Virus record (IMG/VR): IMGVR_UViG_3300042294_005067 | Span: 1-23,109 of that record | Direction: 5' to 3' (one strand) | DNA length: 23,109 nt | Source: a virus | Shown here: positions 1 through 13,612 of the stretch, one piece after another | How positions within the stretch are numbered: position 1 is the first letter of the stretch | Layout: the number at the start of each line of letters is the position of its first letter | Position numbers and translations under genes: made by a program | Notes under the pieces: generated by a model | The model's input: the letters and a program-made list of their open reading frames with translations, nothing else | Told to the model about the DNA's origin: nothing | Databases searched by the model: none

Positions 1-204
1 TATCAAGACATTGAATGTATCGAATCAATTGATACATCTAACCCAATTATGGCAGCACTAGATGGTAATGCTATTGAATTTTATGGTTTACTTGAAAAAC
101 CAGAATCTAATATGAATAATTTTCAAGATTTACCTTTTGAAGATATTGATTTAGATCTTGTTGATAATAATATTGAAATGTTTCGTTTAATTAATAATTT
201 ATAA
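1..204 (+). CDS. C-terminal end of an unidentified protein (5' truncated)
   Basis: An open frame enters from the left edge and stops at TAA 202-204, giving 67 residues with no start in view. The tail is acidic and Asn-rich, with an internal QDLPFEDIDLDL stretch and the end EMFRLINNL. I do not recognise a family. The next gene starts 3 bases after the stop, so it is probably part of the same operon. The upstream sequence is needed to name it. Confidence 0.6.
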   Translation, partial: YQDIECIESIDTSNPIMAALDGNAIEFYGLLEKPESNMNNFQDLPFEDIDLDLVDNNIEMFRLINNL

Positions 205-445: not shown

Positions 446-589
446 ATGACTAAACAAGAATTCGAACATCAACGTTCAGTATGGAAATACGAATGGTACA
501 ATCATTGGAGACTTCTAGATATTGATTTTGAAGCTTATATGTTGATGAAAGGATTATCAAAAGAAGAATATAATAAATTAAATAATTAA
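446..589 (+). CDS. Very small Trp/Tyr-rich protein, unknown
   Basis: This 47-residue open frame starts one base after the preceding stop and ends two bases before queC. It therefore exactly fills what would otherwise be a 147-base hole in a tightly packed operon, which is the main reason to call it. The protein is rich in aromatic and charged residues (VWKYEWYNHWR) and ends in a helix-like segment with KGLSKEEYNKL. No family recognised and no membrane segment seen. Confidence 0.6.
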   Translation: MTKQEFEHQRSVWKYEWYNHWRLLDIDFEAYMLMKGLSKEEYNKLNN

Positions 590-591
590 TT

Positions 592-1431
592 ATGGCAAAA
601 CATGTAGTAGTTAGTCTTAGTGGAGGGATGGACTCCTCAACATTGTTGCTTCGTTGCTTGAAAGAATACGATACCGTAACAGCACTCTCATTTGACTATG
701 GTCAAAAACATAAAGTTGAGCTTGAACGCGCTCAATCATTGGTAGATTATATTAATTCTTCCTACTCTCCAATTCGTTATCGTCAAATTCAATTAAATGG
801 ATTATCCGACCTATTAAACTCAGCTTTAGTAACAGGTGGAGATGAAGTACCTGAAGGACATTATGCTGAGGAAAACATGAAAGCAACAGTTGTTCCAAAT
901 AGAAATAAAATATTTGCTTCAATTGTACAAGCAGTTGCACTTTCAATTGCTGATGAAACAGATGAGCAATGTGACATTGCTTTAGGAATCCATGCAGGTG
1001 ATCATGCAATTTATCCTGATTGTAGACAAGAATTTCGCGATGCAGATGATGCAGCATTTAGAATTGGAAATTGGGGTTCTGAAAAAGTAGGTTATTTTAC
1101 ACCATATCTTGAAGGTGATAAATTTACTATCTTGCAAGATGGAGAAGTATTGTGTGATGAATTAGGTTTAGATTTTAATGAAGTATACAAACGTACAAAC
1201 ACTTCATACAAACCAATCTTTCTTAATTTAGCATTTGTAAACAATGAAGATGAAATAGTTGATTGTTCTGATTGGTTTTCTGATTACAAATCAGCATCGT
1301 CTGTTGAACGTGTAGAAGCGTTTATTAAATTAGGTCGTCCTGATCCTGTAGCTTATGCTGATGAAACAGGTCCTGTAACTTGGGAACATGTAGTAACCGA
1401 AGTATCTAAAGTATTAGCTAGCCATGAGTGA
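592..1431 (+). CDS. queC: QueC-like 7-cyano-7-deazaguanine (preQ0) synthase lacking zinc cysteines
   Basis: QueC enzymes use ATP and ammonia to turn 7-carboxy-7-deazaguanine (CDG) into preQ0. The 279-residue protein has the N-type PP-loop SGGMDSST (10-17), VPNRN (101-105) and the QueC signature YPDCRQEF (141-148). The C-terminal VERVEAFIKLGRPDP (238-252) also matches the family. Typical QueC binds zinc through a Cys in a TCY/SCY motif and three in CGxCxxC. Here the aligned residues are Ser205 (TSY), Asp231, Ser234 and Ser237, with an insertion of about 20 residues between them, so the site is gone. The gene starts 2 bases after the previous stop and overlaps the next gene by 8. Product identity is good; whether it makes preQ0, the amide intermediate or something else is open. 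Confidence 0.9.
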   Translation: MAKHVVVSLSGGMDSSTLLLRCLKEYDTVTALSFDYGQKHKVELERAQSLVDYINSSYSPIRYRQIQLNGLSDLLNSALVTGGDEVPEGHYAEENMKATVVPNRNKIFASIVQAVALSIADETDEQCDIALGIHAGDHAIYPDCRQEFRDADDAAFRIGNWGSEKVGYFTPYLEGDKFTILQDGEVLCDELGLDFNEVYKRTNTSYKPIFLNLAFVNNEDEIVDCSDWFSDYKSASSVERVEAFIKLGRPDPVAYADETGPVTWEHVVTEVSKVLASHE

Positions 1432-1717
1432 TGGAATTACAGAAGCTCGTAGAGGTACTTATTTTGAAAACGACAAATACGACAAGAGTATAATTAATTG
1501 GGAACTACATCAAAAAATGAATACTAAAAAATCTAAAATAGATAAAGAATTTAAAGACTTTAAACATATGCCTAATCAAAAATGGCACAAATATGTTAGT
1601 TTTATTAAATCGGGAGTGCGTATCTTAGGATACGCATTTCTTCCATTTAATTTGGTTGTTGCAACAATTATTCTTATATTTAGTGAAATTATTGGAATTA
1701 TAGAAGAACTAGTATGA
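1424..1717 (+). CDS. Small single-pass membrane protein, unknown
   Basis: 97 residues. The first ~60 are hydrophilic and Lys-rich (NTKKSKIDKEFKDFKHM), and the C-terminal third, about residues 67-92, is a continuous hydrophobic stretch that should cross the membrane, ending in EELV. There is no signal peptide, so the topology is probably N-in with a C-terminal anchor. The start ATGAGTGA overlaps the queC stop by 8 bases, a geometry that recurs in this window. It sits inside the deazaguanine cluster, but nothing in it points to that pathway. Confidence 0.7.
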   Translation: MSDGITEARRGTYFENDKYDKSIINWELHQKMNTKKSKIDKEFKDFKHMPNQKWHKYVSFIKSGVRILGYAFLPFNLVVATIILIFSEIIGIIEELV

Positions 1718-1914
1718 TAAGAAAACGCCACAAACCAATTCAACCTGAAACATATGTTGTTGTTGATAAAAATGGTAGAGCATTTATTGGATTAAAAGGT
1801 GGTTACCCCGAATACTCGGATGATTGGTCTGAAGCCAAACCATTATTTATAGAAAATACAGAAATGTTACTCCGTGAACACGGAACAGAGTTAATTAAAG
1901 AATCAGAATTATGA
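1714..1914 (+). CDS. Small conserved-looking phage protein, unknown
   Basis: 66 residues, joined to its neighbours by 4-base ATGA overlaps on both sides, which argues for translation as part of the operon. The N-terminus is basic (IRKRHKP). The middle, YVVVDKNGRAFIGLKGGYP, suggests a short beta hairpin with a Gly-rich turn. The C-terminus is acidic and helical. No family recognised and no membrane segment. Confidence 0.65.
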   Translation: MIRKRHKPIQPETYVVVDKNGRAFIGLKGGYPEYSDDWSEAKPLFIENTEMLLREHGTELIKESEL

Positions 1915-2297
1915 CAAAAGAAGAATTTATAGTTTATGTAAAAGCTATTATCGATATGGAAATCGAAACAGCTAAAAGAACAAATCCTATCTTTCCTAAA
2001 GATGAAAGATACAAAACAGCAGAAGGATTAAAAGAATTTGTTTCTGACCCTACAGTAGTATCTCAGGAACCACAGTATGAATTGATTGGTGCACTTAAAC
2101 TTATTGAAGAAGCATTGAATAAGGTTAACCAACCCCTACCTCAACCTGCACCATTTTATCCAATTTCTCCTAATTTAAATCCTCCATATATTCCAAGTAT
2201 TGGAGTCCCTAATACATCCCCAGATTGGACTTATCGTCCTGAACATCAACCTTATTACACAGTTACTTGTACAACTAACACAACACAACAAAAATGA
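1911..2297 (+). CDS. Unknown protein with a Pro/Tyr-rich C-terminal tail
   Basis: 128 residues. The N-terminal ~75 residues look helical and soluble (TKEEFIVYVKAIIDMEIETA; GALKLIEEALNKV). From about residue 77 the protein changes to a low-complexity tail rich in Pro, Tyr, Asn and Thr (LPQPAPFYPISPNLNPPYIP), which is likely disordered. The gene has 4-base overlaps with both neighbours. The N-terminal part may be a small folded domain with the tail as a linker or binding segment; no function can be assigned. Confidence 0.65.
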   Translation: MTKEEFIVYVKAIIDMEIETAKRTNPIFPKDERYKTAEGLKEFVSDPTVVSQEPQYELIGALKLIEEALNKVNQPLPQPAPFYPISPNLNPPYIPSIGVPNTSPDWTYRPEHQPYYTVTCTTNTTQQK

Positions 2298-2539
2298 AAC
2301 AACTTTGGTATTTTACAGCAGATTGGTGTGCACCATGTAAAGCACTAGGACCTACTATGAATAGAGTGTCTGAACAAATTTCAGTTAATAAAATTAACAT
2401 TGACTACGAAGCAGATGTAGTACAAAAATATGGAGTAAGAAATATCCCAACAGTAATACTCGTGGAAAACGGACAAGAAGTTCGTAGATTCAGTGGAAAT
2501 AGAAGTTATAATGATGTAATGAATTTTATTAATGGGTAG
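2294..2539 (+). CDS. Thioredoxin-like protein (CAPC active site)
   Basis: Thioredoxins reduce disulfides in the cytoplasm through a CxxC pair. This 81-residue protein has the pair as WCAPC (Cys12, Cys15), preceded by the FTADW strand, and the cis-proline motif NIPTVIL near residue 52. It then has a GQEVRRFSG hairpin and a final helix. It is shorter than the usual ~105 residues and lacks the first helix and strand, closer to compact phage forms. It overlaps the upstream gene by 4 and the QueD-like gene by 8 bases. It could support ribonucleotide reductase or keep the iron-sulfur enzyme QueE reduced; both are inference. Confidence 0.9.
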   Translation: MKQLWYFTADWCAPCKALGPTMNRVSEQISVNKINIDYEADVVQKYGVRNIPTVILVENGQEVRRFSGNRSYNDVMNFING

Positions 2540-2996
2540 TTTTAGATCAACAAAAATATTTGACGGTTATTCAACAGTATTCCGTCAATGGAAAGCAGAA
2601 GGAACACACTGTAGATTTCTTCATGGTTATGGAGTAAGTTTAAAGGTATGGTTTGAAGGTGAACTTGATGAACGTAATTGGGTTTGGGACTTTGGAGGTA
2701 TGAAACGCGCTAAAGGTACTATTGATGGTATGAATCCTAAAGCATGGATGGATTATATGCTTGACCATACTACAATAATTGCTGAAGATGATCCTGAATT
2801 TAATAATTTTAAAGATATGGATGCTCGAGGTATAATTCAAATGAGAGTTATTCCTGGAGTTGGAGCAGAACGTTTTGCTGAATATTTTTACAATAAACTT
2901 AATGAATTTGTTCAAACAGAAACTGATGGTCGTGTAAAAGTAGTACAAGTTGAATTCCGCGAACATGAAAAAAACACAGCATTTTATAAAGGATAA
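2532..2996 (+). CDS. queD: QueD-like / 6-pyruvoyltetrahydropterin synthase family protein
   Basis: QueD converts dihydroneopterin triphosphate, the FolE product, to 6-carboxytetrahydropterin, the QueE substrate. The 154-residue protein keeps the family order: CRFLHGYG (Cys27 as candidate nucleophile, His31), WVWDFGGMK (50-58), MLDHT (Asp78-His79) and GVGAERFAEYFY with Glu113. Canonical QueD binds zinc with three histidines (AAH and both His of HGH). Here the HGH motif is HGY (Tyr33), and no His is present near residue 16, where VFRQW stands. This looks like a variant subfamily that I believe also occurs in other T4-like phages. The gene lies 2 bases before queE, so pathway membership is likely; the exact reaction is less sure. 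Confidence 0.8.
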   Translation: MGSFRSTKIFDGYSTVFRQWKAEGTHCRFLHGYGVSLKVWFEGELDERNWVWDFGGMKRAKGTIDGMNPKAWMDYMLDHTTIIAEDDPEFNNFKDMDARGIIQMRVIPGVGAERFAEYFYNKLNEFVQTETDGRVKVVQVEFREHEKNTAFYKG

Positions 2997-2998
2997 TT

Positions 2999-3775
2999 AT
3001 GGCACTAGGTAGAATAACAGATTATGATAAAGTTTTACCAATTGTAGAATTGTATCGTTGCGTTCAAAGCGAGGGATCTCGTTTTGGACGTCCAACAATC
3101 GCAGTTCGTACAACAGGTTGTACTCACAGATGTTACTTTGGTGAAGGTGGTTGGTGTGATTCTTGGTATACAAGTATCCATCCCGAAAAAGGTACATTTA
3201 ACTTCAACGATATTATTCGTATTTATGATGAAAACCCTCATATCAAGGAAATGATGTTAACAGGTGGTTCACCTACAATGCATCCTGCACTTGTAAATGA
3301 ATTAACACATTTTGCTCATGAAAGAGGTATTATTATTACTATTGAAACCGAAGGTTCTCATTTCCTCGCTACTGATTTTCCTATATCTCTTATATCGCTC
3401 AGTCCTAAATTTAGTAATAGTGTTCCCGTACTTGGAGTTAAAACGCCTCAAGGAGCGACTGTTGATCAAAAAATGATTGATAAACACAATAAAGATAGAC
3501 TTAAAATTGAAGCTATTAGACTTACTATTGATTATCATGCTGATTATCACTATAAACCAGTGTGGGATGGTACTGAAGAAAATTTAGAGGAAATTGAATC
3601 ATTTAGAGTAGCATTAAATATCCCAAAACATAAAACATTTATTATGCCAGCTGGTGATTCACGTGAAGAACTTATTAAAATGTATCCTCTTGTATTTGAA
3701 ATGTGTGCTGAACAAGGATACAACATGACAGGTAGAGATCACATTATTGCTTACGATACAAAAAGAGGAGTATAA
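2999..3775 (+). CDS. queE: 7-carboxy-7-deazaguanine synthase (radical SAM QueE)
   Basis: QueE rearranges 6-carboxytetrahydropterin into CDG using SAM and a 4Fe-4S cluster. The 258-residue protein opens with the QueE hallmark QSEGSRFGRPTIAVRTTGC, where the family has QGEGxxxGxP. The cluster cysteines are Cys41, Cys45 and Cys53 (GCTHRC then GGWCD). The spacing is CX3CX7C instead of the classic CX3CX2C, a loop insertion of the kind known in QueE. A SAM-binding GGSP follows at 89-92, then TIETEGS and SLSPKFSN. AAAGGA lies 7 bases upstream of the ATG and resembles a ribosome site. The last stop base is the A of the next ATG. Confidence 0.92.
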   Translation: MALGRITDYDKVLPIVELYRCVQSEGSRFGRPTIAVRTTGCTHRCYFGEGGWCDSWYTSIHPEKGTFNFNDIIRIYDENPHIKEMMLTGGSPTMHPALVNELTHFAHERGIIITIETEGSHFLATDFPISLISLSPKFSNSVPVLGVKTPQGATVDQKMIDKHNKDRLKIEAIRLTIDYHADYHYKPVWDGTEENLEEIESFRVALNIPKHKTFIMPAGDSREELIKMYPLVFEMCAEQGYNMTGRDHIIAYDTKRGV

Positions 3776-4173
3776 TGGATTTACTTTCTACACACCCCGT
3801 TAAAAAATCAGACCTAGGTTTCCATGGGAATTTATTTGGTGGTAAACTTCTTTCATGGCTAGATGCTGCACTTGCGGCATACGCCATGGAAAAGTGTAGA
3901 AGTCAAAGTATGATTACTGTTGCTTTAGATAAATGTGTATTTAAAAAACCTGCTAAAGAAAAAAATCTAGTAAAAATATATGCTGAAGTAGAAAGTATTG
4001 GAAATACTTCGGCTACTTTTAGAGTAGAAGCTAGAGCATATAATGTTTTTAGAGGAGATGAATCTACACTACTAGAAACAAAAATGACTTTCGTTAGAGT
4101 AGACGACGAAGGAGTACCTATTAAAATTTCAGAACAAGTAAGAAGAGAATTTCAAGAAAAGAAAAACCAATGA
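3775..4173 (+). CDS. Hotdog-fold acyl-CoA thioesterase-like protein
   Basis: 132 residues with the hotdog thioesterase pattern: HGNLFGGKLLSWLDAA (17-32), then a strand with ITVALDKCVFKKPAKEKN and a strand with FRVEARAYNV. The GG followed by Asp30 on the central helix matches the catalytic region of YciA/ACOT-type acyl-CoA thioesterases, which hydrolyse CoA thioesters in the cytoplasm. It starts at the last base of the queE stop, with GAGGAG just upstream, and overlaps the next gene by 4 bases, so it is co-expressed with the deazaguanine genes. Its substrate cannot be read from sequence; a non-CoA substrate such as a modified base is possible. Fold call is fairly safe. Confidence 0.82.
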   Translation: MDLLSTHPVKKSDLGFHGNLFGGKLLSWLDAALAAYAMEKCRSQSMITVALDKCVFKKPAKEKNLVKIYAEVESIGNTSATFRVEARAYNVFRGDESTLLETKMTFVRVDDEGVPIKISEQVRREFQEKKNQ

Positions 4174-4679
4174 AACCCCAAGTTTTATTTACCGAAACCG
4201 AACTTAAAAATAAAGTAGGCGAAATTGCTTACTCTTTAAACAAAACTAAACACGAACAAGCTCCTGTGTTTATATGTGTTTTAAATGGAGCATTTATGTT
4301 TTTTACGGATTTAGTGAAACACATAAATGAATGCAAAATAGACTTTATACAAGCGAAATCTTACACAGGTACAACGCAGGGTGAGATTAAACTTTTAAAG
4401 GATATTACAACAGATATTAAAGGAAAAAATGTGTATTTAATAGATGATATTTTTGATTCTGGGAATACTATTAGATTTTTGATTAAACATTTAGCTTTTA
4501 AAGAACCTAAATCAATTACTCCTATTACACTATTTAAAAAATGGTATTCACATCATCCTGAGTTAATTTATGGTTTTGAATTACAAGATGAAAGTTGGCT
4601 TATAGGTTATGGTTTAGACGATGAAAAAGGACTTCGCAGAAATCTTAAACATATTGTTGGATTATCAGGAGAAAATTAG
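4170..4679 (+). CDS. Hypoxanthine/guanine-type purine phosphoribosyltransferase
   Basis: These enzymes join a purine base to PRPP to make a nucleoside monophosphate. The 169-residue protein has the family's order: VLNGAFMFFTDL (37-48), KSYTGTTQGEIKLLKDI (63-79, flexible catalytic loop), the PRPP-binding motif YLIDDIFDSGNT (89-100), LFKKW with the purine-contacting Lys near 123-124, and ESWLIGYGLDD (141-151), where Trp143 takes the place of the base-stacking aromatic. Length is normal for HPRT. It is coupled by a 4-base overlap to the thioesterase of the preQ0 cluster. Ordinary purine salvage or activation of a deazaguanine base are both possible; the second is speculation. Confidence 0.9.
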   Translation: MKPQVLFTETELKNKVGEIAYSLNKTKHEQAPVFICVLNGAFMFFTDLVKHINECKIDFIQAKSYTGTTQGEIKLLKDITTDIKGKNVYLIDDIFDSGNTIRFLIKHLAFKEPKSITPITLFKKWYSHHPELIYGFELQDESWLIGYGLDDEKGLRRNLKHIVGLSGEN

Positions 4680-5388: not shown

Positions 5389-6084
5389 ATGGAAAACAAA
5401 AGACGAAAAAACCACACTGATTTAGAGTGTGTTAAAACAGGTTTCGCTAATGGAGTTGCGCCTGGGTTCCCACTTACCGAAGAACAAAAATGGGATATGG
5501 TTGATAAAGCCGAAAAAGCATATGGTGAATTTCTTACTGCTTTAGGATGTGATTGGGAAAATGATCCAAATTCAATGGAAACTCCTCGACGTGTAGCTAA
5601 AGCTTATGTATTTGATTTATGGGTTGGTCGTTACAATGCAATGTCTGATATTACTTCATTCCCATCAGATGGTTATGATGGTATTGTAATTGAACGAAAT
5701 ATCCCAATTCATTCAATGTGTTCTCACCACCACCAAACAATTGGAGGTGTAGTTCATATTGGTTATGTAGTAGGTAAAGATGGTCAAGTAATTGGATTGT
5801 CGAAATTAAACCGAATTGTAGAATTGTTTGGTCGTAGAGGAGCAATTCAAGAACAATTAACATCTGCTATTCATAATGCTGTAGATAAAATTTGTGAAAA
5901 CAATATTGGTGTTATTGTAACAGTGGTTGCAACTCACAATTGTGTTTCATGTCGTGGTATTAAACACCAAGGTGCATCTATGGTTACAACTAAAGCATCA
6001 GGAGTGTTTATGGACAATAGTAATCAAGCACGCAAAGAATTCTTTGATTCAATCAAAATTAATAACGGAGGACATCAAATTTAA
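5389..6084 (+). CDS. folE: GTP cyclohydrolase I
   Basis: FolE converts GTP to dihydroneopterin triphosphate, the entry step to folate and 7-deazaguanine synthesis. In a phage with queD-like, queE and queC genes the latter is the likely purpose. The 231-residue protein has METPRRVAKAY (63-73), the zinc motif MCSHHH (Cys111, His114), VIGLSKLNRIVELFGRR (134-150), QEQLT (155-158) and HNCVSCRGIKHQG (183-195), where Cys185 completes the zinc site. Unlike QueC and QueD here, the metal ligands are intact. About 25 extra residues precede the core. It is separated from its pathway partners by a coiled-coil gene and the 257-base gap. Confidence 0.95.
   Translation: MENKRRKNHTDLECVKTGFANGVAPGFPLTEEQKWDMVDKAEKAYGEFLTALGCDWENDPNSMETPRRVAKAYVFDLWVGRYNAMSDITSFPSDGYDGIVIERNIPIHSMCSHHHQTIGGVVHIGYVVGKDGQVIGLSKLNRIVELFGRRGAIQEQLTSAIHNAVDKICENNIGVIVTVVATHNCVSCRGIKHQGASMVTTKASGVFMDNSNQARKEFFDSIKINNGGHQI

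Positions 6085-11703: not shown

Positions 11704-11707
<4 letters not shown>
11408..11707 (+). CDS. Small protein preceding groES, unknown
   Basis: 99 residues. The N-terminal part is beta-like (YTIIKDPVLEPFFLSKDQYC) with a YCYTVYENV strand. The rest is helical (KALGYYTKLSHALNAIAKSK; IKEYIQEWEKNKLAVENLL). It resembles small phage proteins of unknown role that have a short strand followed by a YYxxLxxAL helix. It is linked to groES by a 4-base ATGA overlap, so it should be made together with the chaperonin. A role as a client-specific or assembly factor is only a guess from position. Confidence 0.7.

Positions 11708-13612
<1,905 letters not shown>

Follow-up and report, generated by a model that had tools for sequence, protein, structure and literature searches.

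A phage QueC with conserved polar residues in place of its four zinc-binding cysteines is probably still a preQ0 synthase

We found that a phage protein of the QueC family has exchanged all four cysteines that bind the structural zinc of ordinary QueC for polar residues, and that its catalytic residues are unchanged. The gene lies in a stretch of viral DNA of 23,109 nucleotides (IMG/VR record IMGVR_UViG_3300042294_005067), referred to below as the window, whose relevant features are listed in Table 1. Comparison with viral and cellular relatives suggests that the protein is most probably a working preQ0 synthase, in which the structural zinc was replaced by a metal-free polar loop, an exchange that would have happened at least twice in the family. 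In a family survey from 2026 the zinc motif counts among the hallmarks of canonical QueC, and our literature searches, which covered part of the relevant papers, brought up no earlier description of a cysteine-less variant.

Table 1 The queC-like gene, its motifs, and the pathway genes encoded in the window
Feature	Position	Strand	Evidence
DpdA-like DNA transglycosylase, C-terminal end, cut by the window start	1..204	+	tblastn to DpdA of Flavobacterium phage immuto, E 2e-5; 48% identity to DpdA of L005
queC-like gene without zinc cysteines, 279 aa	592..1431	+	Pfam PF06508 (QueC), E 1.4e-36; AlphaFold2 pLDDT 94.2; Foldseek to 2PG3/3BL5
PP-loop SGGMDS (residues 10-15), ATP site	619..636	+	S, G, G, D, S invariant in 78 aligned QueCs
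YxQxHxxE motif (residues 36-43); Y36 = essential E. coli Y35	697..720	+	Alignment; PMC13329287
VPNRN motif (residues 101-105); R104 = essential E. coli R99	892..906	+	Alignment; PMC13329287
YPDC motif (residues 141-144); Y141 = essential E. coli Y131	1012..1023	+	Alignment; PMC13329287
TSY (residues 204-206); Ser205 replaces zinc Cys188; Tyr206 = essential E. coli Y189	1201..1209	+	Alignment; mutagenesis, PMC13329287
Variable insert (residues 209-230), predicted beta-hairpin	1216..1281	+	AlphaFold2 secondary structure; length variation
SDYKSASS (residues 230-237); Asp231, Ser234, Ser237 replace zinc Cys197, Cys200, Cys203	1279..1302	+	Identical in 82/82 relatives
VERVEAFIKLGRPDP (residues 238-252), flanking helix common to Cys-bearing QueC	1303..1347	+	Alignment
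queD-like gene, FRQW/HGY type	2532..2996	+	Pfam PTPS, 1.3e-15; alignment
queE-like radical SAM gene, CX3CX7C	2999..3775	+	NCBIfam QueE, 1.4e-14
folE (GTP cyclohydrolase I), Cys/His ligands retained	5389..6084	+	Pfam, 3e-42; sequence read directly

As the preliminary description of the window had proposed, the alignment pairs C188, C197, C200, and C203 of E. coli QueC with S205, D231, S234, and S237 of the window protein. The E. coli reference sequence was checked against the structures 2PG3 and 3BL5, in which the four cysteines are identical. Since the zinc motif C(x)8CxxCxxC is absent, we term the protein a variant and not a canonical member. The replaced positions are strictly conserved among close relatives (clade A), for which we assembled 82 sequences: the best 80 of at least 600 viral-contig relatives, Flavobacterium phage immuto (Immutovirus), an isolate whose host is Flavobacterium sp. 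LMO8, and the window itself. Overall identity is 69-91%, yet none of the 82 sequences deviates at any of the four positions. Nearly the whole block SDYKSASSVERxEAF is invariant as well, and every member carries TSYKP...SDY(K)SASSVERxEAF. Ser205, Ser234, and Ser237 are each encoded by both TCN and AGY codons among clade-A members. This synonymous variation at invariant residues indicates purifying selection on the replacements, and together with the 82/82 conservation it rules out sequencing error, chance, or decay. The earlier view of a coherent replacement that marks a QueC subfamily is therefore borne out, and the subfamily is under strong selection.

The same description had noted an insertion of about 20 residues between the ligand positions. 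The insert is indeed present, with strands at residues 209-216 and 222-230 in the AlphaFold2 model, but it does not belong to the cysteine replacement. It measures about 20-22 residues, varies in length within clade A, and is absent from some members with the same S, D, S, S residues, for example contig L054 (TSYKPYPSGNSDYKS), which separates it from the exchange of the cysteines. The idea that the insert is itself the replacement was thus discarded.

The predicted fold is that of QueC. Confidence in the AlphaFold2 model is about 87-95 over the loop and the hairpin, the top Foldseek matches are the QueC structures, and the next structural match is Cap9 (9NTO). Y35, R99, Y131, and Y189 of E. 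coli QueC are essential for queuosine in vivo according to a 2026 study (PMC13329287), and the corresponding Y36, R104, Y141, and Y206 are invariant among 78 aligned phage QueCs, Cys-bearing and Cys-less alike. In this alignment the PP-loop (SGGMDS, 10-15) and YPDC (141-144) are intact, in agreement with what had been noted from the sequence. Because Y189 directly follows the first zinc cysteine in E. coli, the catalytic role of this segment appears to have been kept when the neighbouring ligand was lost. The window protein thus shares with canonical QueC (E. coli; 2PG3, 3BL5) the fold, the PP-loop SGGxDS, YxQxHxxE, VPxRN, YPDC, the tyrosine of (T/S)CY after the first ligand position, and the pathway neighbours FolE, QueD, and QueE; it differs in having S, D, S, S for the four cysteines, in the beta-hairpin insert, and in an NCBIfam score below the cut-off. 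A similar comparison can be made with QueC of Rosebush-type Mycobacterium phages, which are dPreQ0 phages. This protein is 35-43% identical to the window QueC and has the segment P(E/H)GHYAEDNM, VPNRN, GDHAxYPDC, and VERxEAF in common with it, but unlike the window QueC it keeps all four cysteines. The ATPase domains of LarE and GMP synthase belong to the same superfamily and likewise have no QueC zinc motif; however, they also lack the QueC catalytic motifs, which are intact here.

The window encodes FolE, QueD, QueE, QueC, and DpdA, the full set of the DpdA-type 7-deazaguanine DNA modification pathway, and DpdA was found in 20 of 21 long clade-A records. QueF is encoded in eight clade-A records, namely immuto and seven others; the immuto protein has the motifs LRSNCRVTNQPDW and ESKSIKLYL and scores 262.9 bits against TIGR03138, below the model cut-off of 293.45. 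DpdA, a small formyltransferase, and QueF occur together in all eight QueF-bearing records (L001, positions 33474-36400, and seven other clade-A records). The remaining 13 clade-A records have no QueF, and the formyltransferase is also absent from them except for one weak match. By its gene content, the trio suggests a formylated preQ1-type DNA base. The nearest long relatives of the window, L004 and L005, carry no QueF, which therefore gives no indication of their product, and dPreQ0 would be the simplest expectation for the DNA of the window phage.

Several neighbouring genes deserve mention in their own right. The window QueD has Phe/Ile/Leu and Tyr in place of the E. coli zinc histidines H16 and H33 and keeps the catalytic Cys27, His71, and Glu110; QueDs of this FRQW/HGY type also occur in other phages and in two Poseidoniales. 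The radical SAM cysteines of the window QueE are spaced CX3CX7C (CTHRCYFGEGGWC), as in 47 of 51 clade-A phages, the spacing in other QueC groups being mostly CX3CX2C. A phosphoribosyltransferase gene lies between queE and folE (4170-4679); the corresponding place in immuto is taken by another phosphoribosyltransferase, with no tblastn match between the two. Further downstream, a GroES-like open reading frame (11704-12006) precedes one resembling full-length GroEL (11999-13612, 537 aa), both read from the sequence.

Cysteine-less QueC is not confined to phages. Scanning genomes of bacteria and archaea, we found it in Poseidoniales (marine group II) archaea, in Pirellulaceae (Planctomycetota), and in one Neomarinimicrobiota bin, with the signature TSY(N/Q/E/S)P...D(V/I)ERILAF and S, S/D/H, S/T, D at the ligand positions. 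The signature is present in 42 of 60 Poseidoniia genomes. In most sampled Poseidoniales, where the gene order is folE-queE-queC-queD, it belongs to the only strong QueC, and an archaeal TGT was found in 11 of 12 Poseidoniales genomes. The AlphaFold2 model of an archaeal protein reached a pLDDT of 92.5, with about 91 over the loop. Some Poseidoniales, including L241 and L243, fuse the protein C-terminally to an MsrB (SelR, PF01641) methionine sulfoxide reductase domain. Four Pirellulaceae genomes each encode one strong QueC, which is Cys-less, along with TGT and QueF; one of these QueFs keeps VCPKTGQPD and ELKSLKLYL and adjoins queE. As QueF reduces the nitrile preQ0 (PMC5485725), the Cys-less QueC of these bacteria should make preQ0. 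These cellular genomes are metagenome-assembled and possibly incomplete, and a second QueC could be missing from them. A search for D(V/I)ERILAF in 294 Planctomycetota genomes returned the starting genome as the sole match, which indicates that the cellular form is rare there.

A second cysteine-less group, clade B, has a different site, roughly HT(A/S)YDGxYPPxxx(D/N)HA(S/N/T). Its members include Rhizobium phage RHEph06, Pseudomonas Iggyvirus phages, Dinoroseobacter phage R26L, Microcystis phage Me-ZS1, and many viral contigs. Two contigs of the clade-B group, L227 and L233, carry all four cysteines in a matching frame, HTCYAGE(Y/F)PPCGKCHACVLRA. The ligand positions read S, D, S, S in clade A, mostly S, S, S, D in archaea, and A/S, mostly T/V, D/N, and S/N/T in clade B. 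Mixtures with one to three cysteines were found in none of 214 rows. With the zinc columns left out, a QueC tree unites clade A and the cellular Cys-less group at a support of 100/100 and puts clade B in another place, amid Cys-bearing proteins. Explaining this tree takes five state changes, four of which are forced by well-supported branches. Judged from this topology, the four cysteines appear to have been lost separately in clade A and clade B, hence at least twice in the family. Three Cys-bearing rows fall inside clade B, so that either the exchange happened more than once there or recombination brought the loop back.

Why the zinc was given up is a separate matter. One answer, already raised in the preliminary description and compatible with a working preQ0 synthase, is adaptation to low zinc, in which phages and marine cells would spare the metal through a metal-free QueC; on balance we consider it unlikely. 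Many carriers of Cys-less QueC are aquatic, and Zur regulation of queC and queF has been reported in P. aeruginosa (PMC8000910). The zinc-free (C-minus) paralogues of the ribosomal proteins L31 and L33 offer an analogy for zinc sparing, as their structural zinc cysteines were likewise lost as a set with the role kept. They are Zur-switched paralogues, however, whereas we saw no Cys-bearing copy beside the window QueC and no evidence of its regulation by zinc. In addition, two of the three E. coli QueD histidine ligands are missing from the QueD of Cys-less phages at 54 of 56 loci in clade A and 23 of 28 in clade B. On the other hand, FolE retains its cysteine and histidine ligands, QueD is of the zinc type in most Poseidoniales whose QueC is Cys-less, and Cellulophaga and Synechococcus phages pair the variant QueD with a Cys-bearing QueC. 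Clade B also includes Rhizobium phages. The MsrB family, to which some Poseidoniales fuse their Cys-less QueC, usually binds zinc. Zinc sparing by the whole pathway looked strong by the QueD counts, but was weakened by the archaeal zinc-type QueD and by a phylogeny-aware test that had four independent pairs only. The broader proposal that the zinc is a dispensable structural element, replaced in one piece by metal-free polar loops on several occasions, and that the phage pathway is zinc-sparing in general, with the neighbouring QueD perhaps metal-free or with another metal arrangement, strikes us as quite unlikely.

Alternatively, the protein could bind another metal or use a site rebuilt from other residues, such as Asp231, Cys188 (window numbering), or histidines. 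Cys188 is present in 82 of 83 rows of clade A and in 11 of 17 cellular Cys-less rows, and in Pirellulaceae two of the ligand positions are occupied by His and Asp. However, Cys188 sits in a segment that is absent from Cys-bearing QueC, and no conserved set of four metal-type residues extends across clade A, archaea, and clade B. Cysteines elsewhere that restore the site would have spoken against the original description; the only cysteine columns kept in at least 80% of clade A are 22, 127, 144 (the cysteine of YPDC), and 188, and a search of the conserved cysteine and histidine columns gave no suitable set. Another metal or a rebuilt site is thus very unlikely.

The suggestion that the loss of the cysteines changed the chemistry, such that the enzyme halts at the amide ADG and the phages carry dADG, is not supported. 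ADG is a known QueC intermediate (PMC13329287), dADG is known from phages (PMC6884629), with Campylobacter phages of the Eucampyvirinae kind among the reported carriers (PMC6884629; PMC10273834), and the absence of QueF from the nearest long relatives of the window would fit. Yet an ADG stop would predict Cys-less QueC in the company of dADG and not of QueF or dPreQ0, and we observed the opposite. Cys-less QueC co-occurs with QueF in three separate settings, i.e. in clade-A phages, in Dinoroseobacter phage R26L of clade B, where QueF lies nearby, and in Pirellulaceae. It is also the only strong QueC in TGT-bearing organisms that need preQ0 (most sampled Poseidoniales and the four Pirellulaceae). 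Phage Iggy carries a Cys-less QueC, and dPreQ0 is reported in the DNA of its lineage (PMC11008142). Conversely, all four cysteines are kept in the QueC of Campylobacter phage WX1 (178 kb, Eucampyvirinae), a phage whose group is reported to carry dADG. Neither the Iggy nor the WX1 case is decisive alone. P. aeruginosa has its own QueC, and a host QueC could supply preQ0, so that phage QueF or dPreQ0 alone is no proof of the product of the phage QueC. Taken together, these observations led us to reject an ADG-only enzyme as highly improbable.

Finally, a QueC-derived ligase with another substrate, as in QatC and Cap9, or a non-functional relic would agree with a score of 126.9 bits, under the NCBIfam TIGR00364 equivalog cut-off of 150.3, but is extremely improbable, given that the QueC-specific motifs lost in QatC (YxQxHxxE, VPxRN, YPDC; PMC13329287) are all intact, that the gene stands in a folE-queD-queE neighbourhood with DpdA, and that strong purifying selection speaks against a relic. 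Cys-less QueCs of archaea and Pirellulaceae score 132 and 128 bits, and that of a Rhizobium phage 155.7. QatC is further marked by N- and C-terminal extensions and by qatA, qatB, and qatD as neighbours, whereas the neighbours of the window QueC are queD, queE, folE, and DpdA. The deazaguanylating defence proteins QatC and Cap9, which are also QueC relatives, have the QueC fold and the PP-loop as well, but they keep the zinc cysteine site and differ in partners and neighbours. As a separate observation, Vibrio phage GR11A (L236, positions 486-3043) encodes two adjacent QueC-family proteins, one with a stretched cysteine site and one divergent, beside an ArcS-like DUF5591 protein.

If the window protein is a preQ0 synthase, the FolE-QueD-QueE-QueC-DpdA pathway would put a 7-deazaguanine base into the phage DNA. 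In ordinary QueC a zinc pins the C-terminal loop; here this metal would have disappeared along with the four cysteines, leaving a loop that binds none. The structural role of the zinc would fall to the fixed polar residues Ser205, Asp231, Tyr232, Lys233, Ser234, and Ser237, which presumably hold the loop by hydrogen bonding and a salt bridge, with the variable beta-hairpin added beside it in many relatives, the window included. Because the catalytic residues are unchanged, among them the tyrosine that adjoins the first lost ligand, CDG should still pass via ADG to the nitrile preQ0, a conversion suggested by the pathway context.

Overall, the same kind of swap occurs in marine archaea and some bacteria in which QueC must do its normal job, so that a dispensable zinc seems more plausible than an altered chemistry. 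Annotation by motif or by score cut-off will miss such proteins. The large natural set of Cys-less QueCs in phages, abundant marine archaea, and some Pirellulaceae provides ready material for testing the role of zinc, and it suggests that the metal is not needed for the nitrile-forming chemistry of the family.
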